A DNA stretch of 64,000 nt from Cymbomonas tetramitiformis (lineage: Eukaryota > Chlorophyta > Pyramimonadophyceae > Pyramimonadales > Pyramimonadaceae): NCBI GenBank assembly GCA_001247695.2, contig LGRX02012613.1, forward strand, positions 1-64,000. Direction: 5' to 3'. The first letter of the stretch is position 1, and each line of letters opens with the position of its first letter. The position numbers and the translations under genes were made by a program. A model generated the notes under the pieces. The model saw nothing but the letters and a program-made list of their open reading frames with translations. It had not been told where the DNA came from and did no database searches. Of the stretch, positions 2,988 through 63,854 are shown one piece after another.

Positions 2988-3232
2988 GGGGAATAGTATC
3001 GGGCCACCGTTTGGGCCCCGGCCGTCCACAATTTGGGCCGTCCACATGTGGACGGCCCAAATCGTGGACGGCCGGGGGCCCAAACATTCTTAACATTCTA
3101 AGATTTCACAAATCAGGGCTCCCATACTTAAGCCCATACTTAAGGAGTGTAACGCGTCGGCCCGCGTCCACGCCTGCGTTTTCACATACTTAAGAAAATT
3201 TAATTTTTTTCTTCATACTTAAGGAATATATA
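2988..3232 (+). repeat. Left terminal inverted repeat of the 7-kb element
   Basis: This pairs with 9821-10065 in inverted orientation. The outermost 18 bp match at about half the positions (GRG start, then GTATYGGGCC), and the inner part is nearly identical. It contains a perfect nested palindrome around GGCCGTCCACATGTGGACGG and four CATACTTAAG motifs. It ends at the shared ACTTAAGGAATATA. Confidence 0.9.
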
Positions 3233-3294: not shown

Positions 3295-6200
3295 TCAAAC
3301 GTGCGTCAGAGAGACGAACTCAACGACAGAGCTTGACAATCGTATACGATTGTCACACGTGAGTCTGGGTGTCGGACCTAGTGCACCTGCTTGACAATCG
3401 TATACGCACTGGCACTTGTTGAAGTCCACCGGCTGCTGGACTCCCTCGGCAGCATGCAGCTCCTTGTGTTCGATTTTAAGCTCCATGAATTCAATCACCG
3501 CGCTCTTCGGCTCCCAATCAGGATCGAAAATCTCCGATTCGTTCAGAGCATCCGGCATCCCCTCGCCCCGGCGTGACGCTTTCACACGGAGTTCCAGCCA
3601 TTCCCAAACGGCCTGTAATACGCATCAGAATAAGTCTTCGAACTCAGAGACAGAGCAGACTCTAAGTCAAGGTAACGCCAGAGCTTGACAATCGTATACG
3701 ATTGTCACACTTCTTTTACCAACATTTACCAACTAACCCATGGCATGATCATCACAAGTGTATAACGGGGTCACCTTCGCACCGAACGCGGCGATCTCGT
3801 CATTGATATCTGGCATTTCTTTGGCTTCCATCATCCGCGACGCTGCCAGTACTGCAGGGGCCATATTAATCTGAGACCCAGCTGCTGCTTGAATCGCCCA
3901 TAGCAAATGCAGGCAGTTTTCCTTAAACCCCCTTTTCGTATGGGTGATGCCCAACGTCTGCCGAAACCATGCGGAATCGTATACGGGTGCCTCAGTGTAG
4001 GCAGGGCCATAAAGCTTCGGAATCGTGAACGTAGCCCCAAAGCGACCGGCATTTCGAATCTCGATGTAGTCATCCGGCAAGGAGTGAATGTAGCACAAGA
4101 TCATACGCGTGGCTGCATAGCAAACATCACTGTCATTAGGACTTGTAATCCTGCAACTTAAAAAAAAAAACTTGTGAGGACTAACTCACCAGCGCAATCC
4201 ACAAGAGTCTTGTAAGTATGCATGGTATCCTGCGATGACTTATTCACACTCTTGTCCATAGCCCTTCCTTCCTTGGAATCAACGCGCTTCCATCGTTTTG
4301 CTTTCATCATGCTCTTCATGACCTCATCGAAGCGTGCAGTGTAGAATTTGTTGGAAGATTTGATTAACATCCACACCAGAAGCTTGGTTTCCAAATCAGG
4401 CTCTCTGTGGACGTCTTGCATAAGTGTCTGGTGATGCTTTTGCACGTACGTCATATGCTGCGAATCACGGTAAGAATCCCCATCAAATTCATAGGGTCCC
4501 CAAGGGTTGTCAGCTTTTAGTTTGAGTATAGTATCCTGCGTATCCTCATCATCATCATAGACGTCCCCGATAGCCTCTGCGTATTTATACCAATCTGGGT
4601 ATTTCGTCCAACCCATCAGCGAGGCAAACTTGGCCTTGGCAGATTCGATGACATCCTTGATGAAACCAAGACGATGACAATACGAGCTGAACTCAGTGCC
4701 AGTCAAAAACTTGCCCTTGCAACTGATCCCATATTTCTGGTAGAACTCCTTCCGTTTGTCCACATCGTCCACTAATACTCCTTGCTTCGCCACATTAAGA
4801 ACAAAGAAAAAATATCGTACATCAAACCCTAAGGCTGATAGCGAGGTGCTTATAGCCTCTAGGGTAAGAACAGGCTGCAGATCTTTCGGATAGTTCTTCA
4901 ACTCGAGAGCTTCCTTCCGCCATTCATCTCCCAGTTTTGGATCCAGTAACCGCAAAATCTGCAAGCAAGACACGTTGGACACATGTAAGGGGGGCGACAC
5001 GCTTGTCACGCGTGGGTGAGAACTGAAGCTTGCGCCAAAGCTTGACAATCGTATACGATTGTCACGCGTGAGTCAGGGGCGAAGCTAGCGCCAAAGCTTG
5101 ACAATCGTATACGATTGTCACGCGTGGGTGAGAACTGAAGCTTGACAATCGTATACGATTGTCACGCGTGGGTGAGAACTGAAGCTTGACAATCGTATAC
5201 GATTGTCACGCGTGGGTGAGAACTGAAGCTTGACAATCGTATACGATTGTCACGCGTGGGTGAGAACTGAAGCTTGACAGTCGTATACGATTGTCACACG
5301 TGGGTGAGGACTGAAGCTTGACAATCGTATACGATTGTCACGCGTGGGTCAGAACTGAAGCTTGACAATCGTATACGATTGTCACGCGTGAGTCAGGGGC
5401 GAAGCTAGCGCCAAAGCTTGACAATCGTATACGATTGTCACGCGTGGGTGAGACCTGAAGCTTGACAATCGTATACGATTGTCACGCGTGGGTGAGGACA
5501 CATGAGAGAGCGCGGAAGTTTCATACCTTTTGCGCATCCCGCTCGCGCGATTGGAGGAGGGCAACTTTTGCCGATTGATCCCGAAGTTTGGTAATCTCGT
5601 TAGAGTAGGCCGCCGCGGTCGTATCCCTCAGATTGTTCCGATACCAAGCGTTACTCTTGGCACTAGCTTGCCTTACCGGGAATTGTGTAAAATGCGCCAG
5701 TTGGTCTTCCGAGGCGTCGGCAATATTCAACAGCAAAATCCATTTATCGTGTTCGTGAGAGTCAACAAGACTTTCTGTTTGGTCGGTGTTCGTCAGTGTC
5801 CCGATAAGGCTCTGCGCAAACCGAAACTTGTAAAAAATTCATTCATGTACACACGGTATTTTATTGAAACGATGAAACAATCGATATCATACAAGGATCG
5901 CTTACCAAAACACAAGGAGGTGTTTCTTTCTTCAGAACTGTAATCGTTGTGGCCAACCCCTCCAGAGAGGACCTAGCAGCGGTCCCGGAACCACTCCAAA
6001 ATGCTTTACGTTTCCTTGCGTCCAGGACAAGGTCAAGCCAGGCGTCATAGCGATGCTGGCCATCCACCACGACAAGCTGCATTCGCATGAACTTGTTTTT
6101 CACCCACTTCTTGTAGTCATCAGGACCACTATCGAATAGACTGAGATAGTCGGTCTCCAGATTGTGCACCATGTTGTTGAAGTTGCTTATTTCCTCAGGA

Positions 6201-7296
6201 GCCTCCGCATCCGCCGCTGCAAGCAACCGAAATGAACTCAGGTCTGACAATCGTATACGATTGTCAAGCTTTGTAGGAAAGTCCCGAACCCTTGCATAAT
6301 ACTAGTGCTGACAAGCAATGCCTCACCGGGATAAAACTTGGACATGAGCATTTGCCTATACTCTTCGTCCGTGTAATAGTGTCCAGTCCACCACGCGATG
6401 ACATGTGATTTGTCCACCTCCCATCGCTCCATGATGACCTTCTTCTGCTTCTCTATTCCCTCTTGTGAAGTCGCGCGGGTAAACGAAAGTCGGTTTGAGT
6501 CCCCCTGAACATCAGCAGGATGTACCAGCAAGCCAAGAGGGGCAACTACTGGAAGCTTTTTGTCTTCTCGAGTATTATGCTGGGGACGAAAAGTCCATTC
6601 TGAGATCACTTTTTTGATATTCAGCGGTCCTGGGAATATGTAGTCTTGCCTGTTGTCGTCATCAGTGGTCCCAGATATCGCTGCCTTACCCTTCGGGTCA
6701 CGAGCACGCTTTGGCGGTGGTGCACTCCCCGAGGTCTCGGGTGCAGGAGCTGACGCTGCCTCTGTCGCTGCCTCTGGCGCTGCATCTGCATCAGCTTTTC
6801 TCTTACCTAGCATTCTTTTAAGAGTGCCAGCAGTTTTAGGTGCGTCCGAATTCTTCAGTAATGCAAAAGCTGTATCAACTATCTCCTTACCATCTCCACC
6901 TTCCACAAGGGCCCGAATTCCACTCTCGAGGTCTTTCTTCTCCTTCTGTTTATTTGTAGCGGCATACTCGAGCATTAGCGCAACGACTTTCTCAGCTGGT
7001 TGCTGAGCTGGTTGCTGAGCTGGTTTCGGCGCACCAACTGTAATAGTCAGCTTCCTTGGCGATTTAGCTGCAGGTTGAGGATTACTTGCGACTGGAGTGG
7101 CATCTTCACTTGCGACTGGAGTGGCAGCTCCTGCGGTACCTGGAGCAACACCAGCGGCGGGTAACTCATTTGAACCACCTTCACCGGATGCCAAAGATCC
7201 GCTCTGAGAGGCTTGTGCACCTCCGGAGGCCATACGCTGTAAATCTCTAATTGAGCCTCCGAATTTCTTTCGAGCGGTTTGTTTTGTACGAGCCAT
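3295..7296 (-). CDS. Six-exon gene: histone H3 tail mimic N-terminus, DGQHR ParB-like motif
   Basis: The product, of unknown function, starts at ATG 7296 with MARTKQTARKKFGG. Residues 2-10 are those of the H3 tail, including R2, K4, R8 and K9. Exons inferred from GT-AG sites are 7296-6327, 6243-5906, 5811-5527, 4958-4190, 4150-3775 and 3612-3295. Phases agree at every junction except exon 4 to 5, which is off by one, so either there is an indel or I misplaced a site. Total is about 1,018 codons. Exon 1 is Ala/Gly/Pro-rich with basic nuclear-signal-like runs (KRMLGKRK, PPPKRARDPKGK). Exon 2 holds MQLVVVDGQHRYDAW, the signature of DGQHR/ParB-type domains. Exons 3-6 are helical and charged and I do not recognise them. 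Palindrome copies sit in introns 1, 3 and 5, and in intron 1 the palindrome supplies the acceptor (TTGTCAG). The end of the last exon reads through palindrome sequence, so the true stop may be earlier. Confidence 0.75.
3334..3355. repeat. 22-bp palindrome, copy near the 3' end of the H3-tail gene
   Basis: A perfect palindrome with core GACAATCGTATACGATTGTC. A half copy lies at 3392-3406. Both fall in the tail of the last inferred exon. Confidence 0.95.
3686..3707. repeat. 22-bp palindrome in intron 5
   Basis: A perfect copy inside the inferred intron 3613-3774 of the H3-tail gene. Confidence 0.9.
5043..5500. repeat. Intron 3 minisatellite: ten palindrome copies
   Basis: Ten copies of the 22-bp palindrome (one with a single A to G change) are spaced 43-44 bp, or 56 bp in two places. 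They are separated by CGCGTGGGTGAGAACTGAAG-like linkers. The array fills most of intron 3 (4959-5526, donor AAG/GTATGA, acceptor TTGCTTGCAG). Spacers are repeats of each other. Confidence 0.95.
6245..6266. repeat. 22-bp palindrome forming the 3' end of intron 1
   Basis: A perfect copy whose last bases on the minus strand (TTGTCAG) provide the acceptor of the inferred intron 6244-6326. The donor is CCCG/GTGAGG. This splice joins exons 1 and 2 in frame. Confidence 0.85.
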
Positions 7297-7514
7297 GCAA
7301 TAATGAAATCAATGACACCCCGACATGCATTTATAGGGCTGCAGGTACGCACCTCCCTCACGCCCGGCAGCCACAGCCTGTGCCTTAGCAGTGGGCTTTC
7401 TGACTCTTGTGAACCTCCCTGTAGACATCTGTAAAATTATGAATTATTTTAATATTTTCCTAGTATATATAGATAAAGAAAATCTATAAATATATCTACT
7501 ACAATACTCACGTG

Positions 7515-8018
7515 TGACAATCGTATACGATTGTCAAGCTTCTACCGTACGGTTAATCATATTCAGATGTGCACGAGTAGTGACAAACTCTTCGCGAATA
7601 TCCAGGCAGGGTTATACGACATGCAATAGGATACACGATCTCGGCGCTAAGTCTCTCTCACGTGTGACAATCGTATACGATTGTCAAGCTTCGACCGTAC
7701 GGTTAATCATATTCAGATGTGCACGAGTAGTGACAAACTCTTCGCGAATATCCAGGCAGGGTTATACGACATGCAATAGGATACACGATCTCGGCGCTAA
7801 GTCTCTCTCACGTGTGACAATCGTATACGATTGTCAAGCTTCGACCGTACGGTTAATCATATTCAGATGTGCACGAGTAGTGACAAACTCTTCGCGAATA
7901 TCCAGGCAGGGTTATACGACATGCAATAGGATACACGATCTCGGCGGTAAGTCTCTCTCACGTGTGACAATCGTATACGATTGTCAAGCTTCGACCGTAC
8001 GGTTAATCATATTCGAAT
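7515..8018. repeat. 150-bp tandem repeat with palindrome, upstream of H3-tail gene
   Basis: Three full 150-bp units and a partial fourth start at 7515, 7665, 7815 and 7965, each beginning with the palindrome. The array lies between the stop of the SWIM gene (8144) and the start codon of the H3-tail gene (7296), the expected promoter position of the latter. The linker sequence is unrelated to that of the intron 3 array. Confidence 0.95.
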
Positions 8019-8143
8019 GTGGACGAGGGTGCTAATACATGCAATGGTATACAAAATGTTTTGAATAACGTATATGAAAATGCATACACTGTAAAATATA
8101 TAAGATGCCATCACAGATTTACGTTTGTATTCTAGCTAAGCAA

Positions 8144-9286
8144 CTAGAGATCGAAGTTGTCCGGAATTCCAGGATAATACGATAGTATTTTGCGCACTTC
8201 TGAGGATAGCAGCGATGGCTCGTGAAGGTATCCCACACTTGTAATGATCGGAATTTCGAATATCTCGGAGTACAGCCAAAGGAAATGCTTGCATGGAGCA
8301 GGTCGGGTCCTCGCCATTTCTCGAAAACACGGACACGAACAACGGTATTCTCGTCCAAACTCCAAGAGGTATTCACGGCCATCGGAATCAGGGTGACAAA
8401 CTCGGAAGTTATAGACGGTTGCACCACCAGGAACACATTTCCGGATTTGAGTCAGTGCAAGGTTATCGGTCTTAACCATGCTGTGGAGCGCGGTATAGAA
8501 ATTCGCTATCTTCTTCGTCAAGAAACCCTTGCCACTCGCTTTCACCTTAACACCGTTGCGAAGTCTCTCCTCCACGTCCATCTCCGAATTCTCCGATCTC
8601 ACCAGATGTCCTCGAGCCTCTCCTGGGGTCACATCCTCATGGGCAACGCAAACACCAAGAGAACAGAGACGAGTCTCCTCACTTTCCAGGATCTTTGTGT
8701 CCGGTGCAACAAGAAGTTTGGGTACACGGTTCGCCCCCCCCTCGGGCAGTCCAGGCATCGAAACGTGACAACAATACCATGGGTTTTGAACACATTTCCA
8801 CGAGCAGAATATAATCCTCCGGATCGGGGGAGTGGTCCTCACTTCGCGAACTTGACCCTTTTGAAGAGTTAAGTTTTTTGCTGGAAAATAATAGGTCAAG
8901 CTTCCGGTGTACCCAATAGTCAGCTGCCCTTTCGCGATTGGGATGTCGTGACGAGAACCATTAGACTTCCGTCCATAGCATTTACCGTTAGTGCCTGCCC
9001 GCGTGACGTGAAGCAGGGAAGGTTGGAAGTCCCCACCAGCTTCCGGGTAAACGCGAACTGAAGCACGCTCCGGACGTGCCGCCGAGGTAGGTCTTGCCGC
9101 CGAGGTAGGTGGTGCCGCCGAGGCAGGTCTTGCCGCCGAGGTAGGTGGTGCCGCCGAGGTTCGACAGGTTGCACGTCTTCTGCGCTGCGCAGGTGAAGAA
9201 GCATCGGGGTGTCGGTAAGGGTTGGAAACAAGGCCTGTAGTAACGGAAGAGATATTGGCACGGTATGCGGGACATCCAAAGCATGA
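8144..9286 (-). CDS. SWIM zinc-finger protein of the 7-kb element
   Basis: The frame is open from 9286 to the stop at 8144, 381 codons. The C-terminal half carries YRCSCPCFREMARTRPAPCK, followed by HF: a CxCx13CxH SWIM zinc finger, a DNA/protein-binding module common in Mutator transposases and chromatin proteins. Upstream are Cys-rich (FCSWKCVQNPWYCC) and charged segments. No ATG is in this frame before the SWIM part. ATG 9312 is in another frame, so a short upstream exon, an indel or a non-ATG start is needed. An 18-bp GGC-rich repeat at about 9082-9165 keeps all three minus-strand frames open. I see no DDE domain. The neighbouring array at 9437-9738 lies at its promoter position. Confidence 0.65.
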   Translation of the reverse strand, partial: SCFGCPAYRANISSVTTGLVSNPYRHPDASSPAQRRRRATCRTSAAPPTSAARPASAAPPTSAARPTSAARPERASVRVYPEAGGDFQPSLLHVTRAGTNGKCYGRKSNGSRHDIPIAKGQLTIGYTGSLTYYFPAKNLTLQKGQVREVRTTPPIRRIIFCSWKCVQNPWYCCHVSMPGLPEGGANRVPKLLVAPDTKILESEETRLCSLGVCVAHEDVTPGEARGHLVRSENSEMDVEERLRNGVKVKASGKGFLTKKIANFYTALHSMVKTDNLALTQIRKCVPGGATVYNFRVCHPDSDGREYLLEFGREYRCSCPCFREMARTRPAPCKHFLWLYSEIFEIPIITSVGYLHEPSLLSSEVRKILSYYPGIPDNFDL

Positions 9287-9436
9287 TTACCGTATCGCAG
9301 GGAAGCCGGCATGGTTTCCTAAGGTACCATGAAAAATGAATTATGTTATGAAAATAATACCCTATATAGACATGGTGCCAGTGTTAAAGTTTAAGAAATA
9401 AAAAGCATTCACAATATTGGTATGGGGGACAGAGCC

Positions 9437-9777
9437 TGACAATCGTATACGATTGTCAGAACCGTAGGCGTCGTGCGGAGGACGCACTCCGAGTGCTGAC
9501 TGTATATAGACATGGTGCCAGTGTAAATGTTTAAGAAATAAAAAGCATTTACAATATTGGTATGGGGGACAGAGCTTGACAATCGTATACGATTGTCAGA
9601 ACCGTAGGCGTCGTGCGGAGGACGCACTCCGAGTGCTGACTGTATATAGACATGGTGCCAGTGTAAATGTTTAAGAAATAAAAAGCATTCACAATATTGG
9701 TATGGGGGACAAAGCTTGACAATCGTATACGATTGTCAGAACCGTAGGCGTCGTGCGGAGGACGCACTCCGAGTGCT
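9437..9777. repeat. 140-bp tandem repeat with palindrome, upstream of SWIM gene
   Basis: The palindrome recurs at 9437, 9577 and 9717 in a 140-bp unit that also includes TATATAGACATGGTGCCAGT. The array sits 5' of the SWIM gene start. Its linkers differ from both other arrays, so the palindrome was the seed of three independent tandem expansions or is under constraint. Confidence 0.95.
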
Positions 9778-9820
9778 GACTGATGCGCCGACCAGCACTC
9801 CGAGAATACCCCAAAAACAT

Positions 9821-10065
9821 TAATATATTCCTTAAGTATGGAATTTTTTTTCTTAAGTATGGGGAAACGCAGGCGTCGACGCGGGCCGACGCGTTACACG
9901 CCTTAAGTATGGGCTTAAGTATGGTAGCCCTAATTTGCGAAATGTTAGAATGTTAAGAATGTTTTGGCCCCCGGCCGTCCACAATTTGGGCCGTCCACAT
10001 GTGGACGGCCCAAATCGTGGACGGCCGCCCGCCGGGGCCCAAACAGTGGCCCAATACCTACACTC
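9821..10065 (-). repeat. Right terminal inverted repeat of the 7-kb element
   Basis: The inverted partner of 2988-3232, with a few substitutions and a short CCGCCCG insertion. It carries the same CTTAAGTATG motifs and the nested CCGTCCACATGTGGACGG palindrome. Confidence 0.9.
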
Positions 10066-10350: not shown

Positions 10351-10393
10351 CCCTACAGATCTGCAACCCTTGGGAAAGCTTTCCATAGGCATG
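10351..10393 (+). repeat. Left CACTA TIR
   Basis: 43 bp, identical to the reverse complement of 17293-17335. It ends in CTTTCCATAGGCATG, so the subterminal motif is already part of the TIR. Confidence 0.95.
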
Positions 10394-11470
10394 TCATCCC
10401 TGTGCCCTCCCTATGCCCGCCCTTGGGAACGCTCGGGAAAATCCGGAAATATTTTCCAAAGGCTTGGAAAGTTTTCCATAGGGTATTTCCATAGGGATAC
10501 CCCCTTTTGGAGTTTCCATAGGGTTTCTATAGGGCTGTATGCCTATGGAAAAGGACGTTCCATAGGCATGGAAGGCCGTATAATCACCCTATGGAAAAGT
10601 AAACATTTCCATAGGACGACTATAGGCATAACCAGGACTATGGAAAACCCTATGGAAAATGTAAAGCCTTCCATAGGGCGGCTATAGGCATAGGGGGCCG
10701 ATGGAAAGCCCTATGGAAAATATAACTTTCCCATACGCTTTCCATAGGCATGTCCAAGGGCGGGCGTAGGGCGGGCGTACGGATAGCGCACCTATGGAAA
10801 CTTAGCGTATACTATGAGTTTTCCACAAGGTTTTCCATAGGGCGGGCATAGCGATAGTACACCTATGGAAATGTACAATTCGCCCTGCGTATTCTCGGGA
10901 ATAAAGTCGTAATTCCATAGGGCCTTCCATAGGGATGCCATAGGTATGGTAGGCCTATGGAAACGTATAATTCACTCTGCGTATTCTCGGGAATATCAAC
11001 GTAATTCCATAGGGCTTTCCATAGGGCCCCCATAGGGATAGTATACCTATGGAAATATACAATTCATTCTGCGTATTCTCGGTCAATAAAGACGTAATTC
11101 CATAGGGGTTTCCATAGGGTTAGCTATAGGGATAACACAGGGTGAGCATGCCGTAGGTATACTCCTGATACAGGTGGCAAAGTCGATACCTATAGTATCC
11201 ATATGGAATACGTTTCCACACGTATACCGTACGTATGGAACCGAGTTCCATAGGTATAGCCAGCCTATGGAATGAGCTTTCCCAGGGGTGAGCCACCCAG
11301 TGGAAAGGTCTTCCGTAGGTATATCATCCGTATGGAAACATGTTTCCCAAGGGATACCGTACCTGTGAAAGGGTTTCCATAGGTATAACCATTCAGGTTT
11401 CATAGGGTGAGCATAGGGTGATGATTCATGATATATCCAGGCTTTCCATAGGGCTTTTACTACATATATA
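10394..11470. repeat. Left subterminal array of CCATAGG motifs
   Basis: Dozens of copies of TTCCATAGG and its reverse complement CCTATGGAA occur at irregular spacing in both orientations. Longer diverged units also recur: GTATTCTCGGGAATA-type blocks at about 10890, 10980 and 11070. Such arrays are transposase-binding regions in CACTA elements. No coding region here. Confidence 0.85.
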
Positions 11471-11866
11471 CATATTAATATACAGAATAATTCCATCTAT
11501 GAAATGAACAAGTTATTCGTCATGTAAGTCGCCCACAAAATCTACATGCCTATCTAGTATGAGCATCATCTTGTCTTTATCATATCTCCATGGTGGATCA
11601 CTGAAACCGAGTTTGTGCTCGCCGAGATAATAATTATACCAACCTATTTGCATCGGGTCGTCCAGCTGGAATTCTCTTGGTCGTGATGAACCGGTCAAAG
11701 TTCCATGGAATGGGTACAATGCACACCAAGCACTCAATCTCAAATGCTTGGATGAAAACCTCGGAAAGGTCCCATGGCAAGTCCGACCTCAACATCATAT
11801 TGTTCGCCACGGTATCTTGAAATGCTGCCTTCAATGGAAACCATCTTACTTTGAGGAAAACAAATT

Positions 11867-12131
11867 CAAGGTAAGGTTTGCGCGGAGTCCAAAAATGCAA
11901 AAACTTTTCAAAATCTAGATTTCGAGATACGAGCGATTTAAGTTTGCGCTTAAGTATGGTTAAGTATGGGGGGGTGACCGAGTGGTATCGACCATAACTT
12001 TTCATTAACGTGATCAATTTGATACCTGAAGTGCGCAATATGTACAGGGCGCTCTGGGCAACCTATTTATCAAATAAAAGATTTTTGAAAAGTTTTTGCA
12101 TTATTTTGGACTCCGCGCAAACCTTACCTTG
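11867..12131. mobile_element. MITE 1 (265 bp), inserted in the CACTA transposase exon
   Basis: The inverted repeats of about 50 bp start CAAGGTAAGGTTTGCGCGGA. The target duplication is AATT (11863-11866, 12132-12135). Removing the MITE and one AATT restores the host exon frame (IGRKQ/FVFLKVRW). The centre contains CTTAAGTATGGTTAAGTATG. MITE 2 at 55542 shares the centre and the terminal CAAGGTA. Confidence 0.9.
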
Positions 12132-12182
12132 AATTGTTTCCTGCCAATCGGGATGCTATAAATTTTCAGAAGCTCGCCGTAC

Positions 12183-12415
12183 CTGCAACACATACTTTCC
12201 AAAGGGTGAGCATAGGGTGGGCACAGGGTGGACATAGGGCGGCTATAGGGTGGGCATAGGGTCAACATAGGATGCAAGGCAATTGTGAATTGGGCATAGG
12301 GTGAGCATAGGGTGGACATAGGGTGATCATAGGGATGTTATAGCGTGGACATAGGGTGATCATAGGGATGTTATAGGGTGGGCATAGGGTGAGCATGTGG
12401 GAGGGATACACTTAC
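12183..12415. repeat. Intronic CATAGGG array
   Basis: Tandem GGGTGGGCATAGGGTGAGCA-like units fill the intron between exon 2 and the last exon. This is where the catalytic exons would be expected. Confidence 0.8.
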
Positions 12416-13009
12416 GATGAAACGTAGTCACAACCGGCAGATCGTCGTTCTCCGCGGGTGTAGTTATCTTCCATGATACCAAGAGCTCGGCCATCTCTGG
12501 TATCAAATATAGCATCGGCAGGAGTTCGTCCAAGCGCCAAAACCTAAATACCTTGTACGGCTTTCCCGGAATAAGCCGTCCGTTACGTCGAGAGCTGGGG
12601 TGACACCGAAGTTTGTGGCAATGGAGGCACTGGGTAAGGTCGTCATGCCGGCCCGGAGTGAAGATCATGCATTCATTCCTGCAAACGTCGGCGGTATGGT
12701 ACGGCAGGGCAAAATCCTTCCACATAGACAAAGCTTGTTTGAAGGAGGTCGGGAAACCATTTCGTCTCTGATTGCCGATGATGTCAACGTTGCCAATCAC
12801 CGTTTGCCGCATGAGATTGAAGATTTGATCAAACATGGATTGGGTAGCATTGTGCTCGGATTTCGTTTCCAGCAGATCAATGACAAGACGATGCATTGTT
12901 GAAACCTTCTCGGCATAGACGTGATCAACGACCTGTGAAATCACGAGAGGCATCCCCAACTTTACAGGAACTGCAAAATAAAAAAAAGGCATTTCCCTCC
13001 GCATGTCCA

Positions 13010-13340
13010 CCCTATGCCCGTCCTATGCCCACCCTATGCCGACCCTATGGAAACATCCAATGCTTTCCATAGGCATGCCTACCCAGTGAACCACCTATAC
13101 CCGCCCTTGGGAATGCTCAGGCCCACCCTATGGAAACATTCCATGTTTTCCCAACCTATGCCCGCCCAATGCTCGCCCTATGCCCACCCACTGGAAACGT
13201 CCAATGCTTTCCATAGGCATACTTACCCAGCGCCCTACCTATACCCGCCTCTGGGAATGCCTGTTCCCACCCTATGGAAACGTTCAACGATTTCCCAACC
13301 TATGCCCACCTGTTGGCATACGTACGCCCACCCTTGGGAA
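13010..13340. repeat. Subterminal-type repeats inside intron 1 of the CACTA transposase
   Basis: CCACCCTATG and CTTTCCATAGGCATG units recur, with a diverged duplicate of about 130 bp (13040-13170 and 13195-13300). Confidence 0.75.
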
Positions 13341-13779
13341 ATACAGAAAGAGGGGTACCTCTTGGTTATCCATATCCTCATCGTTGGCAGCAGGACTTAG
13401 GAGACGGGCACAATGTTCTTCCAGCTTTCTCAAATGATCCTGGAGAATTTCGTCCGCTTCTGCATTGGCATCTTCCATGTCATCATCACCTCCAAGGGAA
13501 CCACCATCACCACCATTACGGTCACCCCCGTCATCACTTGAAGTATCGTCTTCACTACTACTTTCCCCCATGTATACCGCTCCTTGCCATCTCTTGTATA
13601 GCTTCGTATGTCGTTGTATCGTTCGAAGAGGTTTTTCAACTTGTAGTCGGCACACGGTGCAAGGACATGGTGGCATGTCGACCCCGTGGTTGTTTAATAC
13701 TGGCCCACAACACACCATCCATACCAGCACGCATGACTACTTGGAACCGTTGCTTCCTTTTTAACTTTTCATTTGCTAG

Positions 13780-14660
13780 GCATAGGGTGATCATGAGGTG
13801 GTCATAGGGTGGGCGTAGGGTGGGCATAGGCATGGAAACAATACGATGTGTTCCATAGGGCGGTCCGCCCAATGACATCCCTATGGATCGAAGGTGTTCA
13901 ATACCTTCCATACCATGAACGTAGGGTGGACATAGGGTGGACATAGGGTGGACATACGTTAGGAATGCTGTATTCTGGTTCCATAGGGATGCCCACCCTA
14001 TACAACCTATGGGAAAATAACTTGAACTTTCCATAGGGATATTGGGTTGATATTCTATGAACGGTCGAGGTGTTAACCGCCTATAATAGTGGCGTCCGTA
14101 GGGCTGGAAATAATTACACAGGGATGGAAAAACCCTATGTAAAACCTATGGGAACGCATTTCCATTGGCTTTCCATAGGGCAAAAACCTTTCCATAGGGC
14201 ACTTTTAAATCCCCTATCTGAAAATCGTATGGAATGGCTCTGGAAAATTTGCCACAGGCCCCAATGGAAATCGTTTCCACCGGGTGATCATAGGTTGGCT
14301 CACCCCATTTTCGGGATTCCATAGGTTATTTATAGGGATGGAATTAAAAAAATGAAAAATAGGGCAGGATTAAAACAGGCCCTTTTTGGACCCTACAACA
14401 GCAACACGCCGCACTTGGAAAATGCCTATGGAAAATGCAGAATTACACTGTTAAGGAATGCCACAGAGATCATCCCTATGATTGTGGCGTCCATACCTGT
14501 GGAATGGCCTGGAAACAGGTTAAAAAACATCACCAATGTACCCTATGGAAAATCCGGAGCCTGTGGAAAAAGTGGTGTGCCCTATGGGAAATCCAGAGCC
14601 TATCCCTATGGAAACCCCTATGGAAGACCCCCTACCGCCGCCAAAAACCCCCCCAAATAA
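13780..14660. repeat. Internal CCATAGGG repeat tract
   Basis: Irregular CCATAGGG and CCCTATGGAA motifs continue upstream of the transposase start. No coding region is supported. Confidence 0.7.
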
Positions 14661-15245
14661 AATGAGCTTGTTCGATCACCCCCAAGAAAACAAACCATTT
14701 GTTCACTGACGAGGGGGGCAAAAAAACAAAATTGCGGCCTGTATGCGCTGTTTTGGCTAGTCGAGATTTTATTTCTGGAACTTCAAAAAAAATCGGGATC
14801 TCATAGGTTCGATTGAGACTGAGAACGACGGCCACCTCTAGACCATTACGAAGGGTTGATTACATTTAATCCCAGTTTAAATTTTATAAGTCGATTATCT
14901 CCGATGCAATGTCACTGAGAGTCTGAGACATCGCATCGTCATCATCGTCGTCATCGTCGATCGTGCTCGCATGACGAGTCGATCCGATGTGACTTCTGAA
15001 CGGCAAAGTTTTTGAGCACTTCGATTTTTCTGAACGGTCAAGTTCAAACTCACGTTATTGCACTCTTCACAGTTCGCCGTCAGCAATGTTGCAGCAGCCT
15101 CGCCAGTGAGTTGCGTGCTGTGATATTTTTAATTCTCACAGGTTGCAATATGGCACTGGTTTGCAGTGCATGTTTTGGTTATGCGTGTGTATTATTTTGT
15201 GTGTGCTTCGCGCGCTCATACTTGGCATGCGTGAAACTTTGACTA
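14661..15245. other. Unique interior of the CACTA element
   Basis: No convincing gene. A (CATCGT)-type trinucleotide-rich patch lies at 14935-14962. The CCATAGG motifs stop here. Confidence 0.4.
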
Positions 15246-15313
15246 GGAGTGAACGGGAAATTCCCGCGAGTCCTTTGCACTCGAAATAGTTGGTTCAAAT
15301 CCAACTCACTCCA
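15246..15313 (+). tRNA. tRNA-like cloverleaf, anticodon-position TTT, minimal D-arm
   Basis: The acceptor stem GGAGTGA (15246-15252) pairs perfectly with TCACTCC (15306-15312). The anticodon arm is CGAGT-CCTTTGC-ACTCG (15267-15283). The variable loop is AAATA. The T arm is GTTGG-TTCAAAT-CCAAC (15289-15305), a canonical B box. The D arm is only CGGGA-AAT-TCCCG with a 3-base loop and lacks GG, so there is no normal A box. Position 33 is C instead of T. Read literally the anticodon would be UUU (Lys). It totals 68 nt including the discriminator A. A short T run follows at 15321-15324. It may be a degenerate tRNA, a tRNA-derived sequence or chance, although three perfect stems argue against chance. 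Confidence 0.4.
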
Positions 15314-15481
15314 CATCCCCCTTTTACTTTCCTTTGCTTCTTTCGTTGACGACTGCTATTTTCTTTCTTCTTTACTAAACGTTAGTTGGTTGGTTTCGTT
15401 TTTCAGATCCGCTGAAAACGTTCGCGTGGCGAAGTCATATTAGGTTTTCATCTCGCGTTCATATTCGCATTTATTTGAGGT

Positions 15482-15815
15482 TGCTCGGTTGTTAATTATG
15501 TTTTCAATAAAGGTTTATTTTGTGCGTTTCCGCTTTTTACTAAGTGTTGGCTCTTTACTTTCCTTTTCAGATTGGCTGTTTTCGAGGAGGGCGAAATGGA
15601 GGAAATCGACCGCCTCGAGTACAACGTCAACTTCAAGCATCCCTTCAAACATTCTAGGTTGATAAGTCCTTTATGTTTTCAATAGAATATTCTTTTGTGC
15701 GTTTCCGCTTTTTTACTAAGTGTTGGCTCTTTACTTTCCATTTTAGATCGGTTGTTTTGGAGCGAAGCGAGATGGAGAAAATCGACGGCCTCGAGTACAA
15801 CGTCAACGTTTAGGT
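15482..15815 (+). repeat. Duplicated short exon with its upstream intron
   Basis: Two diverged copies of about 150 bp (15500-15650 and 15675-15815) share TGTGCGTTTCCGCTTTTTAC, a pyrimidine tract, and an acceptor-like TTTCAG or TTTTAG. Each is followed by a short open segment ending EIDRLEYNVNF or KIDGLEYNVNV. This looks like an exon duplication in a second, plus-strand gene of the CACTA element, comparable to the second gene of EnSpm elements. I could not build the rest of the gene. Confidence 0.4.
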
Positions 15816-16080
15816 TGGCATCTTGTAAATAGAAAGAGCACGAGAAGAACATTATTTTGCGTATTGTAAATAGAAAGTGCACGAGTAGAACATAATTTTG
15901 TGTATTCGTTGGTATGATAAAATTTGATAGTCCCATTCGTATTCCTTTCTGCCTAGCTAGATACATGTTAATCGTAGTAAAGATGCTCGAGTATTTTGTT
16001 TATCTCGCATAGTGGAAACATAGTGAACACACTGCATGTTGCTAATGTGCAATATGTATGCTACACAGTCAGTGCTACAC
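15816..16080. other. Non-coding interior with a short direct repeat
   Basis: A unit of about 48 bp (TTGTAAATAGAAAGWGCACG followed by ARTAGAACAT) occurs twice at 15825-15900. No gene seen. Confidence 0.5.
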
Positions 16081-17292
16081 GTACAGTATCCCTATACTTG
16101 CCCCACTATTGTGCCTATGGAAAGTAAATATTAATTAAGTTCCATACGTATAGCATCCCGATATTATCCCTATATCGTGCCTATGGAAACCATATATATC
16201 TACCGGTTCCATACCTATACTATGCCTATAGTAAATAGTTTCCATACGGATAACATACGTAGGGAAAGATGTTTTCCATACCTATAATATACGGTTTTCA
16301 TACGCATGGTATCCCTGGGGAAAAAGCTTTCCGTAGGTATAGTACACCTGTGGAAAATGCTCTCCATAAGTATAATAACCGTATGGAATTTGAATTCCAT
16401 AGGGCGGGTCACCCTACGGAAAGCGTTTCCATAGGTATACTCCTGATGCTGTTAACGGAATCATACGTATAATATCCGTATGGAATACCTTTCCATAAGT
16501 ATACAGCACGTATGGAATTGTGTTTCCATAGGTATAGCCATCCTATGGAATAATCTTTCCCAAAGGTGAGCCACCCAGTGGAAAACCTTTCCATAAGTAT
16601 GTCGGCCGTATGGAAACCTATTTCCCAAGGGACGCTAAGTGTATGGGCCCGTCTTCCGTAGGCATAATGTCCGTATGGAAAGATCTTTCCCAGGGGATAC
16701 CATACCTGTGGAAAATGTTCCATAGGTATATCGACCGTATGGAAGATTGCTTCCCAAGGGATACCATGCCTATGGAATTCGCTTCCATAGGTACACCGTC
16801 CGTATGGAAACAGGTTTCCCAAGGGGTACCATGCCTGGGGAAAAGATTTCCATAGGTATGACCTATTAGGTTCCATAGGGCCAGCATAGGGTGATCATAG
16901 GGATGGAACATATCCGTGTGTTTTTCCACAGGGTTTTCCATACGGCTTTCCATAGGAATGCTATAGGGATGACATAGGTACGGAAAACGCTTGATATTCC
17001 AGGACTTTCCATTGGGTTTCCATAGGGTTTTCCATACGATATTTTCCATACGATTCCTTCCATCCCTATGGAAAACGTTCCATAGGTATGGACGCCACAA
17101 TCATCCCTATGGAATGCCTTGGAAAACCCTATGGAAAGCACAATCACCCTATGGAATGCCCTGGAAAAAAATGAAAACCTTCCCAAGGGTGAGTATAGGG
17201 ATGGAAACTCAAAATTTTTGTTTTCGAGATAACCTCCAGTATCCATTTTCCCTTTTCCATAGGGCTTTTCCATAGGGTTTTCACCCGTTTCC
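16081..17292. repeat. Right subterminal array of CCATAGG motifs
   Basis: A mirror of the left array: TTTCCATAGGTATA, CCGTATGGAAA and CCCAAGGGATACCATGCCT units in both orientations. No coding region. Confidence 0.85.
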
Positions 17293-17335
17293 ATGCCTAT
17301 GGAAAGCTTTCCCAAGGGTTGCAGATCTGTAGGGA
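17293..17335 (-). repeat. Right CACTA TIR
   Basis: The perfect inverted copy of 10351-10393, followed by the ATA target duplication. Confidence 0.95.
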
Positions 17336-32837: not shown

Positions 32838-34706
32838 GTGGTAACATCATCAGAGATGGGATTGCTGGTCAAAGAATGGGCAAAGAATGGAGTCTCCATC
32901 TCGGATTTCTTCCAACATTTTTCAGGCACTTACGAAGGGGCTCGTTTCGACTCAAAAACACCCCCGAGGATGCAATTCAAGAATCATGCGATACCGGATC
33001 ATTTGATCCCCTGGATCTCTGGTAAGATACAGGACGAGCTCGAATGGGGAGCGATAAGAGTCTGGGGCAAAGAAGGGGAGTGCTCTCCCCCGCATCTAGT
33101 TATGCCGGTAGGGGTGGAGCCAGCCAAACCAAGAAAGATCAATGATGCAAGATTCCTTAACCTTTGGTGTAAGGATATTCCGTTTACTTACGAGTCGGTG
33201 ACAATGCTTCCACAAATCTTAGAGGTGGGGGATCCGGCATTTATTATGGACCAAGCGAACGGATTCTTCCATGTGAGGCTTACAGAGGAATCGCAACAGT
33301 ACATGGGTTTCCTGTGGGAGGGCGTATATTACGTCTATACAGTTCTCAATTTCGGATGGAAACTAGCGCCGGTCATTTATAGCGCCTTTGCGGGGGAATT
33401 CGCGGGATTCATCCGGCGGCTGGGGATACCATATTTATACTACATCGATGATAATGCCGGTGGACCGGCCCCAGTGGGAGCTTCGACTCTTACGAAACAG
33501 GAAAGAGCCGCAATCTCGGTGTTCGTTGTCTCGTCATGCATGACGGCGGCGGGATATTTTATTCACCTGGAAAAGACGGAGTTCATTCCGTCCATGACCA
33601 TCACCTGGCTAGGCATTGGCGTTGACCTTGCGAAGCAGGAGTTCTTCATCCCGCAGAGAAAATGGGAGAAGTTCTTGAGCCTGGCAACGGGCCTGCGAGC
33701 TTCGTCAAAAATTTCGGCCAGAGACCTGGAGAGGGTGGCAGGAAAGTTGCTTTCAATGTCAATTGCAGCCCCAGGTATCCTTATAGCATGCAGGAAGTTG
33801 TATGCCTTTCTGGCAAAAAGGCACGAATTCTGCAGGAAAAGTTTTTTCCTGAACAATAAGCAGATGAGACATTTCAAACTCTACTTGAGTCAACTCTTCC
33901 AGCCGTCGTTGATTAAGGTGTCCGCATTCAGAAAGCAGGCCCACTGCTCGATTCTTGTGGATACAAACGACGATTGTACAAAAGTCACGGCATCAATCAG
34001 AGCAGGGGAATTCCAAGATGAAATTTCGTGCTATCGTGATTTGAGAACCTGCTCGTCGGTGGATCAATCATTTTTGATTTCAGAAGCCTTGTTCGAAATC
34101 CCAGTAAAACGGGTCCCGCAACGCTGGGACATAATCTTGGATAAAAATATCTGGGATTCATCGAGAGTCCTCTCGTCTAACCTGGGCACAAAAGCATGCA
34201 AGGACCTGGCAGAAAGGCTCTATAGATTTGTCGCGGATAACAACTTGGAGCTGAAGGTGGTTTCCTTTTCAAGGGGACCTGATGGAGCTATTGTAGTCCC
34301 GGATGAAGAGTCTCATTATTCACTAATGCCACGGTTCTCTCCTCTGTTGAACATGATGTTTGGACGGCACAACATCGACTGCTCCGCAACAACGGCTGAT
34401 GTTCGGGGATGCCCCAAAATGCGATTTTGCTCAAGACTGCCAGAGAAAAAAGCTTGTGGCACCAATGTCTTTGCCTATCCACTAGCGGGACTAAATTGTT
34501 ATGCTAATCCGCCTTTTGCATTAATGGGACCGTTCCTGATGTATCTAAGAGAACAGAAAGCGTCAGCCTCTGTAGTTGCTCCACAGTGGGATGGTTTCTC
34601 TCCAGATGGGTTCTGGTGGACTGCGTACAATGAACTGTGCAAACAGAAGTTCAGAATCGCTGAAGCAGGAGAAGTCTGTTTCCAACAACTTAGAAATGGA
34701 CGATGA
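32838..34706 (+). CDS. DIRS reverse transcriptase with C-terminal DIRS domain
   Basis: A 622-codon frame, open from 32817. Fingers and palm motifs: PRKINDARFLN, then FIMDQANGFFHVRL (first catalytic Asp), NFGWKLAPVIYS, and YLYYIDDNAGG (the YxDD pair). The C-terminal third has the DIRS-family stretch RFSPLLNMMFGRHNIDCSAT and NCYANPPFALMGPFLMYL, often compared with Dam-like methylases, with a closing VVAPQW. The frame is full length without internal stops, in contrast to its neighbours. The first in-frame start is GTG 32838, and ATG 32856 (SSEMGLLV) is the first methionine. It would copy the element's RNA to DNA. Confidence 0.8.
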   Translation: MVTSSEMGLLVKEWAKNGVSISDFFQHFSGTYEGARFDSKTPPRMQFKNHAIPDHLIPWISGKIQDELEWGAIRVWGKEGECSPPHLVMPVGVEPAKPRKINDARFLNLWCKDIPFTYESVTMLPQILEVGDPAFIMDQANGFFHVRLTEESQQYMGFLWEGVYYVYTVLNFGWKLAPVIYSAFAGEFAGFIRRLGIPYLYYIDDNAGGPAPVGASTLTKQERAAISVFVVSSCMTAAGYFIHLEKTEFIPSMTITWLGIGVDLAKQEFFIPQRKWEKFLSLATGLRASSKISARDLERVAGKLLSMSIAAPGILIACRKLYAFLAKRHEFCRKSFFLNNKQMRHFKLYLSQLFQPSLIKVSAFRKQAHCSILVDTNDDCTKVTASIRAGEFQDEISCYRDLRTCSSVDQSFLISEALFEIPVKRVPQRWDIILDKNIWDSSRVLSSNLGTKACKDLAERLYRFVADNNLELKVVSFSRGPDGAIVVPDEESHYSLMPRFSPLLNMMFGRHNIDCSATTADVRGCPKMRFCSRLPEKKACGTNVFAYPLAGLNCYANPPFALMGPFLMYLREQKASASVVAPQWDGFSPDGFWWTAYNELCKQKFRIAEAGEVCFQQLRNGR

Positions 34707-43167: not shown

Positions 43168-45627
43168 ATGACACCTGTGACGCACTTGAACAGTTTCGAG
43201 CAGACGGAAGGGGTAGCCCCAGCGTCTGAGAAATCGCTCGATGACCTGGAAAACTTCGGAGTAGTTCAGAGATTAGGCACAAAATGGTTGAAAGGGAGTC
43301 GGCGCGCTCGGCGCTTAATGTTGGGGAGGCTCGCATCTGCAGAAAATACGCTGTCCTGGGCTTCCCTCCGCGCCGGGAGACCATCGGTGATACAGACATT
43401 GTCCAATCGCAAGACGCGCAAATACGCGTTGCGAGAGGCTCGCGCCGTTGTCAAAGACTTCTATGTTCCCGCAGCAGGGTACATCTCCCTCGTGCTTCAG
43501 TTCGTGTTTCTGCCGTTCCTCGTCGACCTGCCCTGGGAAGCGCGCTTCCATCAAGGCGGCAAACAAATCGCTTCCCTGGCGTTCCTCGCGTCGCTCGATG
43601 CGGGATGGCAGTCGCGCTTCGTCGTATTCTGCGTAGCGTGCACCTTGTGCTGCCTCTCGGTGCTCGTCTCCGGCACGCCCCAGCAGAAGATTATGCTCGC
43701 CTTCAGCCCGAACGTGCACGCAACATTACTCCTCAGCTCCCGCATGTGCAATACGGTGTTGACCTTACCACTCCTCCGAATCTTGCTCGCCGTGTTCCAC
43801 TGCGAGGGCGGCCAGGTCTTCTCGAACCGAAGCGGCATGGCCTGCCATGGCCCCGCGCATGCCACCACCATGGTCGTCGGAATCGTGGCGTCTCTTCTCC
43901 TCGTGGTCTCCGTCATCCATTACATCTCCGACAGATGCAACCCTCTGGAGGCGGCTAAGCGACGCTGCCGGGAGTCCAAGTTCAACGAGACGACGTTGTA
44001 CTTCCCCTACGCCCTGCTGGGGCTCAAGGTGGTGACCGCCATCACGCTACTTCTCTGGACGCCCCAAGGCAACAAGGTCCACATCATGTTATTCCTGGTC
44101 CTCGCACTCCTGCTCACAATGGCGGTTTTCGTCAGCTCCCAGCCGTACTCCAGCCAGAACATCGCGTGCTATGTGTTCGCCTCCTTGTGCGTCTGCGTCT
44201 GGTCGAACGGCATTGGGGTGTTGGTGGCCATCAACGACGATTCTAGCAACACCACGTTGCTCATCGTGCTGTGGGGTTGCGGGATATGCGGGAGTTTCCC
44301 GATGGGCATCTGGTTGTACAACCTGCTGCTCTGCCGGAAGCTCTTCTTCCTGTACCAGCGTGCGCGCGCCAGCAAGGTGCTGGACTTATCCGCTCTGCAG
44401 GACCCGCGGCTTGCCCCCTTCATCCGAGTTCTGTCGTGGCTCTCCTTCGACTCCGATATTGAGAGACTCATCTTGAGCGGATGCTGGCTGCATCCGTTGG
44501 AAACCAAGATTTTTCTCGCATCCCTGATCTGCAACAGTAATTCAGCGCTACAGGAGATCGAGCTATCACACCAGAATTGGAAAGGCAAGGAGGTGGGGAT
44601 CGAGCTGCTTCCACTTCGGCTGCCGATGCTGACGACGCTCACGGTGGACTTCACCGAGCTGGGTCCTCTCAACACCCTACGGCTCTGCAGCGCTCTGGAA
44701 GGCCCCGCAAGTCTGACTTCGCTCAGCATGGTTGCATGTGGGCTCGACGCAAAAGACGGGGCCGTTCTGGGACGTTGCCTGCGGCGTAACTCGTCGCTGC
44801 GATCCCTCGTCCTCGCCAACAACGACCTGCGCGAGAGTGGCGCCGTGGACCTTGCCAAAGGCATGCAGCACAACTGCACTCTTCACAGTCTCGACCTTAC
44901 ATGGAATCTCATTGGGGAGGTAGGTGCGACCAAGATCGTGGAGGCGTGCTCAGGGCGTGCGCGCGACATTTCTATGAAAGTGCGCCTCACAGGAAATCGA
45001 GTCCCCCGGAAAGCACTGAAAGAGTTGCAACAGCTGCTTGAAAGTGCCGTTAGGGAGTCCGATCCCCAGCCGTCAGCTGTTACTGCACTTTCGGATGCCG
45101 AAACTGAAACGTTATACGCACTCATCGGGAAAACGCTCGCCATGGATCCCGACACCGCCCTGGATGCCCTCTGTGAGAGGTTTTATCTCCTCCTGGTGAA
45201 TGACCCGCAGTGCATGCCGTTTTTTGGCTGTGTTCCAATGGGGCGGATGCAAAAGCTGCAGAAATCGTTCCTTGCTCAAGCACTTGGGGGCCCGAAAATG
45301 TACAAAGGTCGCGACCTGCAAACCGCGCACCGACATCTCAAGATCACCGACGAGCATTATGATGCCGTCGTGGAACATTTCTTTGCTGCATTGCTACACT
45401 TCATCCCGCACCCTCCGACTTTTATGGTGAAGCAGATTCTGGACTTGCTGGAAGGGGCGCGATCGCTTGTCGTCACGAAGGGAATGAGTGAAGCTAGGCG
45501 CTCGTCGCTCGTGTTTGCATGTACTGAGGAACAATTTGACTCAGTGTTTGATCGCAGCCAGTCTAATTTCAGAACACTATTTCCAATCAATCAGGTGAAG
45601 CACCTGCGCCGCAATCTAGCGATCTAA
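43168..45627 (+). CDS. Membrane LRR protein with C-terminal truncated haemoglobin, 819 aa
   Basis: A single exon opens at ATG 43168, the first ATG after the in-frame stop at 43111, with GC-rich codon use unlike the flanks. Residues 1-100 are basic. About eight membrane segments lie at roughly 105-122, 150-168, 190-210, 234-252, 278-297, 305-323, 332-352 and 362-385. Ribonuclease-inhibitor-type leucine-rich repeats span about 430-612 (LRSLVLANNDL, LHSLDLTWNLIG). Residues 645-775 form a group 1 truncated haemoglobin: RFYLLLVNDP with B10-type Tyr673, FF at 685-686, QALGGPKMYKG, and AHRHLKIT with proximal His721. The domain could bind haem and sense O2 or NO, with the LRRs as output or partner surface (inference). 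The order membrane-LRR-globin is unusual. The frame is intact, so it is probably a functional host gene. Confidence 0.9.
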   Translation: MTPVTHLNSFEQTEGVAPASEKSLDDLENFGVVQRLGTKWLKGSRRARRLMLGRLASAENTLSWASLRAGRPSVIQTLSNRKTRKYALREARAVVKDFYVPAAGYISLVLQFVFLPFLVDLPWEARFHQGGKQIASLAFLASLDAGWQSRFVVFCVACTLCCLSVLVSGTPQQKIMLAFSPNVHATLLLSSRMCNTVLTLPLLRILLAVFHCEGGQVFSNRSGMACHGPAHATTMVVGIVASLLLVVSVIHYISDRCNPLEAAKRRCRESKFNETTLYFPYALLGLKVVTAITLLLWTPQGNKVHIMLFLVLALLLTMAVFVSSQPYSSQNIACYVFASLCVCVWSNGIGVLVAINDDSSNTTLLIVLWGCGICGSFPMGIWLYNLLLCRKLFFLYQRARASKVLDLSALQDPRLAPFIRVLSWLSFDSDIERLILSGCWLHPLETKIFLASLICNSNSALQEIELSHQNWKGKEVGIELLPLRLPMLTTLTVDFTELGPLNTLRLCSALEGPASLTSLSMVACGLDAKDGAVLGRCLRRNSSLRSLVLANNDLRESGAVDLAKGMQHNCTLHSLDLTWNLIGEVGATKIVEACSGRARDISMKVRLTGNRVPRKALKELQQLLESAVRESDPQPSAVTALSDAETETLYALIGKTLAMDPDTALDALCERFYLLLVNDPQCMPFFGCVPMGRMQKLQKSFLAQALGGPKMYKGRDLQTAHRHLKITDEHYDAVVEHFFAALLHFIPHPPTFMVKQILDLLEGARSLVVTKGMSEARRSSLVFACTEEQFDSVFDRSQSNFRTLFPINQVKHLRRNLAI

Positions 45628-62250: not shown

Positions 62251-63854
62251 TCATGCGAAGGGTGCGAGGCCTTTGTTATCATCGATTTCACGGAAGAAAT
62301 CCGCCTTTGCGATCAACACAGCTTGCAAGCAATCAGTTCGTCGTCGAATGGCCAAAGGGACAACATTTCCTTTGTACCGGGCAACCAAGCCGGCATGAAG
62401 ACATCCTGAATTACCACTTACGATTCTCCAATCTTTGTTTGCGCGAACGAATGGTGAGACGTCCCATGGCATGTCTTTGCGGAGTGAAAAAATGTTCTTT
62501 AGTATCGTCCTGTACTTGACCGCCCCTTTGGTATAGCGGGCCTTCCAGCAGAAGATCTCGTGACCGGGAAGATCAAGCTTGACGATCTTCATGATTTCCC
62601 CATACCTATCTTCAACGTCATCGTCCGGTATCTCGCCTGTAAGAAGTTGAGCTGGAGTTGGCACTCCCGGACTTCGAAAGATGCTCTTGAAATACCGTTG
62701 ACAACTCTTCAAACCAATGTCGCTGTCGTGCACTCGGAAATCTTCACGCCCAATCTTGATGTTAGGATACTCCGTCCACGGGGCGATCCCGGCTAACTCC
62801 TCCTCGGTGAAAGGCTGAATCTGCAAAGTTCTTGGGAACCTTCTCCACGTGTCTGGTTGTAGAAACACCGGAACCACGTCATTCGTCATCGGCCTTCGAC
62901 GACCCGCCCGTCGGTTGCGACGATTCCGTTGTCCAACGTTCCTGCATTCGCAAGTACACACGGGTGGACTCAATGTTCCGTACGTTGTCATACGGTGACC
63001 GTACGCCGTCCGTACGCCGTCCACGTGGCGTTCGCACATTTTACAGACATGCACATAAGTTGGTACCTGTTGAATGAGTCGAGTGTGTCGTCGAACTTTT
63101 TGCACAGAGTGTCGTACTCGGGGAACTCGGTACGAAGGTAGACTTGAATCTTTTCTCTGTCATCTGTTGCGATTGACGCCGCGCAAGTGAATTAGTTGTC
63201 TCATAAGAAGACTGAAGAGAAAAAAAACGGACAATAGTGAAAACCCATCCGTACGTACGGACAGGTATTCCACACATGTGGACGGCGTCATCCGCACGGC
63301 GGGCTCTTCGTCCACGCGCTTGGACAGGTGGTATTGACCAAACGGACAATAGTAAAGTACCGTCCGTGCGTATGGATCGCTGGCCACACGTGTGAACGAC
63401 TTCGTGCACACGTACTTAAAAAGCATCCACACGCATGGAAAGACTAATATGCATGGCACACATGATACTTAGGGATGATGTGCTCACCAGCGGTTGGCCG
63501 CACAGTGCTTGATTTCGTTGTAAAGATGTTCTGCTTTGCAGGAGGTCGATACTGGGGAGCTCGACCACTTCGATGCATTCGCTTGATGCCAGCAACCATG
63601 GAAACCGTTCGCCGCAACTCCAGTCCTTTCATCATGCCGGCGACGGGTTGTGAGCGGGTCTTGATGGACAGCTTCAACAACCCGAAATAGTCTTCGAAGA
63701 CATACATCCAGATTTCCCGTGCAGGGCCGTTGTCCTTCAGCTGGTCGACAATGTGCACGAGAAGATGCGACATAATCACCAACGCCTCAGGGGAGTTGTT
63801 CCGCTCCATCTCATCTCTCAACTGCATGCCTCGGCTCTGCAGCTTGTTCATTTC
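62251..63854 (-). CDS. CACTA transposase, last three exons (DUF4218 and DUF4216 regions)
   Basis: The exons are 63854-63488 (acceptor TTTTGCCTTTCAG, donor GCTG/GTGAGC), 63163-63067 (acceptor CGCAACAG, donor AACAG/GTACC) and 62941-62251 (acceptor GAATGCAG). All phases agree. The first has MSHLLVHIVDQLKDNGPARE then WMYVFEDYFGLLKLSIK, the DUF4218 signature of plant CACTA transposases. The second reads KIQVYLRTEFPEYDTLCKKF. The third has a basic patch and DRYGEIMKIVKLDLPGHEIF then KDMPWDVSPF, equivalent to the DUF4216-like region split by MITE 1 in the first element. Upstream exons with the catalytic core should lie beyond or near 64000. The intact splicing suggests a younger element than CACTA 1. 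Confidence 0.8.

Follow-up and report, generated by a model that had tools for sequence, protein, structure and literature searches.

The element and its genes

The DNA analysed here, referred to as the window, is a stretch of 64,000 nucleotides from the alga Cymbomonas tetramitiformis with a G+C content of 48.3%; the report on the long-read assembly of Cymbomonas gives 914 Mb, 51.4% G+C, and 68.3% interspersed repeats (PMC10675990). The window contains an element of approximately 7.06 kb that is bounded by terminal inverted repeats, each some 236 bp long (Table 1), the core arms of which comprise 180 nt with 94% identity. TA is found at both ends of the element and may represent a target-site duplication, for which 2 bp are weak evidence, and the element is DNA-transposon-like. 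No second copy was found among the matches listed for the window. The element carries two genes, referred to as gene 1 and gene 2, and a 22-bp palindrome, TGACAATCGTATACGATTGTCA, which is present in 19 exact copies and one copy with a single mismatch. All 20 matches to the palindrome in the window, at up to 3 mismatches, are located inside the element, and 100 shuffles give none; the palindrome has 0 matches in viral contigs. The exact copies are distributed among the inferred introns of gene 1 (11), the region upstream of gene 1 (4), the region upstream of gene 2 (3), and the vicinity of the left end (1). The palindrome may be bound by a protein that the element encodes, and its binding by the gene 1 protein in particular would be a guess.

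Gene 2 contains a CxC...CxH arrangement near its C terminus, which by eye resembles a SWIM zinc finger, and has no match in Pfam, PHROGs, or NCBIfam. A recognisable transposase is absent from the element insofar as Pfam returned nothing above the cut-off for the spliced proteins of gene 1 and gene 2. An ORF at 2016-2996, which reaches as far as the left end of the element and shows by eye Tc1/mariner-like DDxD motifs (HIDEKYF, GDNAGPH, and SPDFNYLDL) with no Pfam match, was considered as the transposase of the element and rejected because it lies outside the inverted repeats. Several other units are found in the window. A second mobile-element-like unit (10351-17334) has exact inverted ends of 43 nt and dense TTTCCATAGGG-type repeats, and includes an ORF at 12360-13010 (minus strand) that is CACTA-like by eye and has no Pfam match. 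An RVT_1 reverse transcriptase ORF (32838-34706) and a DUF4218 ORF (63444-63989) are probably further mobile-element remains, and an ORF of 819 codons (43168-45627) matches in Pfam both a leucine-rich repeat and a bacterial-like globin domain, a seemingly unusual pairing.

Gene 1 is modelled with six inferred exons, separated by GT-AG introns of consistent phase, which together give an open frame of 1001 codons. Introns 1 to 3 were placed only by means of the splice consensus and the reading frame, whereas inferred introns 4 and 5 are supported by an alignment that crosses both without gaps, obtained with the only relative retrieved. In this search with region 215-960 of the spliced protein, a single match was found among the 8000 scored candidates, namely P0001 (CYMTET_10357 of C. 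tetramitiformis), in which 236 of 269 residues are identical to gene 1. The annotation of CYMTET_10357 starts at an internal Met and is devoid of the N-terminal part. The exon-1 ORF, compared with 5.8 billion proteins of which the 8000 candidates sharing most words were scored, has no homologue at E ≤ 0.001 among them. Furthermore, a search with residues 1-40 for non-histone proteins with the same start yielded 8 candidates and 0 at E ≤ 10, under a length rule of about 193-616 aa that left out H3 itself. Peptide patterns of exon 4, CYMTET_10357, gene 2, and exon 1 retrieved 9, 7, 6, and 9 stretches, respectively, from viral contigs, with no confirmed relative, and the protein and viral collections searched are possibly devoid of the genome of the window itself.

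CYMTET_10357 extends 395 residues beyond the end of its similarity with the window copy, which is therefore probably deleted at the C terminus. An incomplete copy of the palindrome, TTGACAATCGTATACG, probably represents the deletion breakpoint, seemingly at the palindrome core. The open frame of gene 1 continues past residue 964 to 1001, and its last 37 or so codons are located in palindrome-bearing sequence. Judged from this comparison, the window copy, lacking the 395 C-terminal residues, may be defective.

No domain was assigned to gene 1. For the spliced protein, Pfam gave none above the cut-off, the best being HDV_ag (E 0.099, 13.1 bits vs a cut-off of 27 bits), and neither PHROGs nor NCBIfam had a match for residues ~231-480 of gene 1, for CYMTET_10357, or for a piece of the latter. 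DGQHR in exon 2 is, by eye, a ParB-like motif; exon 2 matches no ParB or DGQHR family profile in searches of Pfam, PHROGs, NCBIfam, PDB sequences, and phage tblastn, and a ParB domain was rejected as an impression from the motif with no profile, PDB, or phage support. Likewise, the C-terminal part of CYMTET_10357 as a DNA methyltransferase was rejected as a motif impression for which Pfam, PHROGs, NCBIfam, and phage tblastn give nothing; two matches to PDB sequences bearing on the methyltransferase and ParB ideas (E 0.99 and 1.9) are taken as chance. Basic clusters similar to nuclear localization signals (NLS), KRKAD and PPKRARDPKGK, are recognised by eye in exon 1.

Table 1. Positions in the window of the element, its genes, and the features surrounding the start of gene 1.
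Feature	Position	Strand	Remarks
Left terminal inverted repeat	2996..3231	+	Gapped alignment; TA at 2997-2998
Right terminal inverted repeat	9823..10057	-	TA at 10055-10056
22-bp palindrome TGACAATCGTATACGATTGTCA	3334..9738	.	Span of all copies
Incomplete palindrome copy TTGACAATCGTATACG	3391..3406	+	At most a few bases from where CYMTET_10357 similarity stops
Gene 1, exon 6	3409..3612	-	From 3612 onward; limit drawn at end of CYMTET_10357 similarity (model residue 964)
Gene 1, exon 5	3775..4112	-	CYMTET_10357 alignment gap-free across both flanking junctions
Gene 1, exon 4	4190..4958	-	3′ part aligns with CYMTET_10357
Gene 1, exon 3	5527..5826	-	Inferred
Gene 1, exon 2	5906..6216	-	Inferred; carries VVVDGQHRYDAW, which includes DGQHR
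Gene 1, exon 1	6327..7296	-	3′ end inferred; H3-like start, then Ala/Pro/Ser-rich stretch
H3-like start MARTKQTARKKFGG	7255..7296	-	H3 residues 1-9 and G12-G13, opening the gene 1 ORF
Upstream ATG frame MSTGRFTRVRKPTAKAQAVAAGREGG... (MSTGRFTRV...)	7309..7428	-	May serve as an alternative first exon or as an upstream ORF
TATAAA	7330..7335	-	Begins 39 nt upstream of ATG 7296
150-bp tandem repeats with 22-bp palindrome	7507..8027	.	Upstream of gene 1
Gene 2	8144..9312	-	~370 aa, one inferred intron
Three 140-bp tandem repeats with 22-bp palindrome	9363..9782	.	Upstream of gene 2

The H3-like start of gene 1

The first ORF of gene 1 (7296..6238, minus strand) comprises 352 codons and starts MARTKQTARKKFGGSIRDLQRM. 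In the numbering without Met, residues 1-9 of histone H3 (ARTKQTARK) are identical in the start of gene 1, and G12 and G13 of H3 agree as well, with S10, T11, and K14 replaced by K, F, and S, respectively. Similarity to histones is absent after MARTKQTARKKFGG, and Pfam gives no histone match with either exon 1 or the spliced protein; thus, gene 1 includes residues 1-9 of the H3 tail without the histone fold and the remainder of H3. The initial annotation had described a gene of the element that opens with the H3 tail, with GG at the H3 spacing, and is otherwise not histone, and this description is confirmed; its location of the segment at 7255-7296 is correct, and the strand, which it left unstated, is minus.

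The nine H3-like codons are GCT CGT ACA AAA CAA ACC GCT CGA AAG. One explanation for their presence is passive capture, by which the element would have acquired a promoter with its TATA box, the ATG, and the codons that follow it from the 5′ end of an H3 gene of the host, to serve as a ready-made promoter and start, and the peptide would be unselected. Host gene fragments are captured by DNA transposons elsewhere, and the match in gene 1 starts exactly at the start codon, ends after codon 10 (K9), and is preceded by TATAAA at a promoter-like distance, all of which is consistent with such an event. However, G12-G13 are kept while S10-T11 are changed, which is not the pattern that a junction falling cleanly behind K9 would leave. 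The nine codons also fall inside the codon usage of gene 1 itself and consequently bear no mark of a recent piece from another gene, although this argument against capture is weak. Capture is overall regarded as unlikely, with an appreciable share of the probability nevertheless left to it.

The position of the segment at the N terminus is likely. An in-frame TGA (7311-7309) is located upstream of ATG 7296 with four codons between, so that ATG 7296 is the first Met of the open frame, barring a splice to upstream sequence. A start site approximately 30 nt downstream of TATAAA would give a leader of roughly 10 nt. The transcript presumably has ATG 7296 in its first coding exon. All considered, a translated N-terminal ARTK start of gene 1 is rated as likely. 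The competing arrangement is that transcripts start farther upstream, that translation begins at the upstream ATG (7428), and that an intron with the GTGCGT donor (7352) removes ARTK, in which case the H3-like start would belong to a minor isoform at most. The signals for this arrangement are an acceptor-like TTTTACAG preceding ATG 7428, a donor-like G/GTGCGT within the upstream frame (GT at 7352), and a good acceptor-like TTTACAG ending at 7237. However, as read by eye, joining the GTGCGT donor to TTTACAG does not preserve the frame of the long ORF. To skip the ARTK segment in frame, a weak acceptor is required, for example TTAGAG with its last base at 7245 (also by eye); furthermore, the exact H3 tail would sit in an intron without reason.

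Codon scores bear on both starts. Over the first 60 codons of gene 1, frame 0 is unsupported (0.4 and -1.6), which favors the upstream start; the next frame reaches 6.3 and 11.4, and the opposite strand as much as 12.3. The score was trained on gene 1 exons of different composition and is weak for the start of gene 1. For the stretch of the upstream ATG, all three frames tested have negative scores (-3.2, -6.5, and -10.4), which argues against the upstream start with a score that is likewise weak. Taken together, translation from the upstream ATG is judged distinctly improbable. The upstream MSTGR frame was also considered as a displaced piece of H3 10-34 and rejected, its score being attained by 839 of 2000 shuffles.

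The resemblance to H3 was assessed by several approaches. In a local alignment with the H3 tail, the first 40 residues of gene 1 reach a score of 53, which was matched by 0 of 2000 shuffles. With whole H3 as the query in tblastn, the best match in the window is the 14-residue start of gene 1 (E 0.024), and the other 11 window matches listed have E 0.63 or worse. Residues 1-40 gave 113 matches at E ≤ 10 with PDB sequences (best E 0.043), and among the matches listed, the best 60 of the 113 are H3 or H3-derived chains. On the codon composition of the window itself, MARTKQTARK is expected 1.1e-8 times per window. An empirical null was obtained from an exact degenerate pattern, covering all codings of MARTKQTARK, over a prokaryotic genome collection of 257 Gb; it is only a rough one because the composition of the collection is unlike that of the algal genome. 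Nine matches were found in the prokaryotic contigs, seven in H3 genes or pieces and two (L001 and L004) not in H3, the latter having no H3 alongside and opening frames of 28 and 19 codons, respectively; the match in L004 is antisense inside an ORF of 286 codons. The H3 genes or pieces of the seven others (L002, L003, and L005-L009) sit in contigs assigned to bacterial metagenome-assembled genomes and likely reflect eukaryotic contamination. The same pattern has 0 matches in viral contigs. That one among very many ORF starts should spell MARTKQTARK by chance can appeal to the two of nine matches outside H3 genes, but both of these open only the short frames given above and about 5e-7 occurrences are expected per 64 kb, before the GG spacing and an ORF of 352 codons are required. 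A match by chance is very improbable.

A possible mimic of the H3 tail

The explanation preferred over capture, an upstream start, and chance, held tentatively and with a likelihood somewhat below even, is that the gene 1 product would be nuclear and would have, once Met is removed, an N terminus (ARTKQTARK...GG) that is a maintained mimic of the H3 tail. This reading draws on the identity of nine residues with GG at the H3 spacing, the first Met, TATAAA, the NLS-like clusters, CYMTET_10357, and the palindromes. If selection acted on that part of the tail which is recognised, it could have left the departure from H3 after K9, except for GG. In H3 proper, K9 methylation and S10 phosphorylation constitute a switch (K9me/S10ph), which the loss of S10 in gene 1 would abolish.

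In the proposed mechanism, the N-terminal peptide would be exposed ahead of a disordered linker and would be bound by host proteins that read the free N terminus of H3 and R2/K4/K9. Candidate binders would be PHD fingers, demethylases of the LSD1 and KDM5 types, SET methyltransferases, and readers of the HP1 or UHRF1 type, and at least some of the readers or enzymes of H3 R2/K4/K9 should recognise a nuclear protein that carries nine residues of H3. Two versions may be envisaged. The gene 1 protein could bring chromatin factors to the DNA of the element, perhaps via the 22-bp palindromes, or could soak up such factors, by which the chromatin of the element would become less silenced. Recruitment is slightly favored over titration because sites that recur within the element would fit a protein of the element that binds DNA. 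As the initial annotation had suggested, recruiting or titrating chromatin factors is a plausible use of the H3-like start. The complete scenario, in which an algal transposon protein with an H3 N terminus, anchored at the palindromes, would display decoy or recruiting tails, shape its own chromatin, and escape silencing, is considered possible and, as a whole, rather doubtful.

Comparison with known mimics of H3

Histone mimicry is known mainly from viruses and from a few host proteins, with motifs that are mostly short or internal. In the literature pairing ARTK-type peptides or mimicry with mobile elements, no such protein was found among the titles and beginnings of abstracts listed, a sample that mostly leaves subscription literature uncovered. 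Histone mimicry is a known kind of phenomenon, and its putative carrier here, a mobile element, is unusual. If the mimic reading is true, nine exact H3 residues at a free N terminus would represent a new answer of selfish DNA to chromatin-based silencing.

The closest host examples concern UHRF1. According to the sections consulted of one report, the PHD of human UHRF1 binds H3 1-15 with a Kd of 1.7 uM and PAF15 1-10 with a Kd of 2.2 uM, contacting 1-ART-3 in H3 and 1-VRT-3 in PAF15, and mouse DPPA3 competes against H3 for UHRF1 (PMC11187062). The binding of H3 and PAF15 by the UHRF1 PHD, as described there, indicates that short H3-like N-terminal peptides are able to bind readers. Like the gene 1 product, PAF15 and DPPA3 are non-histone proteins with an H3-like stretch, in their case VRT, which is read by the UHRF1 PHD as is ART of H3; the stretch of PAF15 is N-terminal. 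By contrast, on the same description, PAF15 and DPPA3 are host proteins with a motif of three residues, whereas gene 1 belongs to a mobile element and has nine residues and GG.

Among foreign elements, NS1 of influenza A H3N2 is listed in the part consulted of a review as having the histone mimic ARSK (PMC7958646). NS1 is similar to the gene 1 product in that a protein of a foreign element resembles the ARTK tail of H3, and, on that account, NS1 acts on the host. The mimic of NS1, as described there, is C-terminal, comprises four residues, and is encoded by an RNA virus, whereas that of gene 1 is N-terminal as in H3, comprises nine residues, and is encoded by a DNA element. A further comparison is with the chromodomain integrases of Ty3/Gypsy elements, which are likewise encoded by mobile elements and engage the H3-tail code, as the gene 1 protein would. 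The relationship differs in direction: Ty3/Gypsy integrases read the H3 tail, whereas the gene 1 protein appears to display it.
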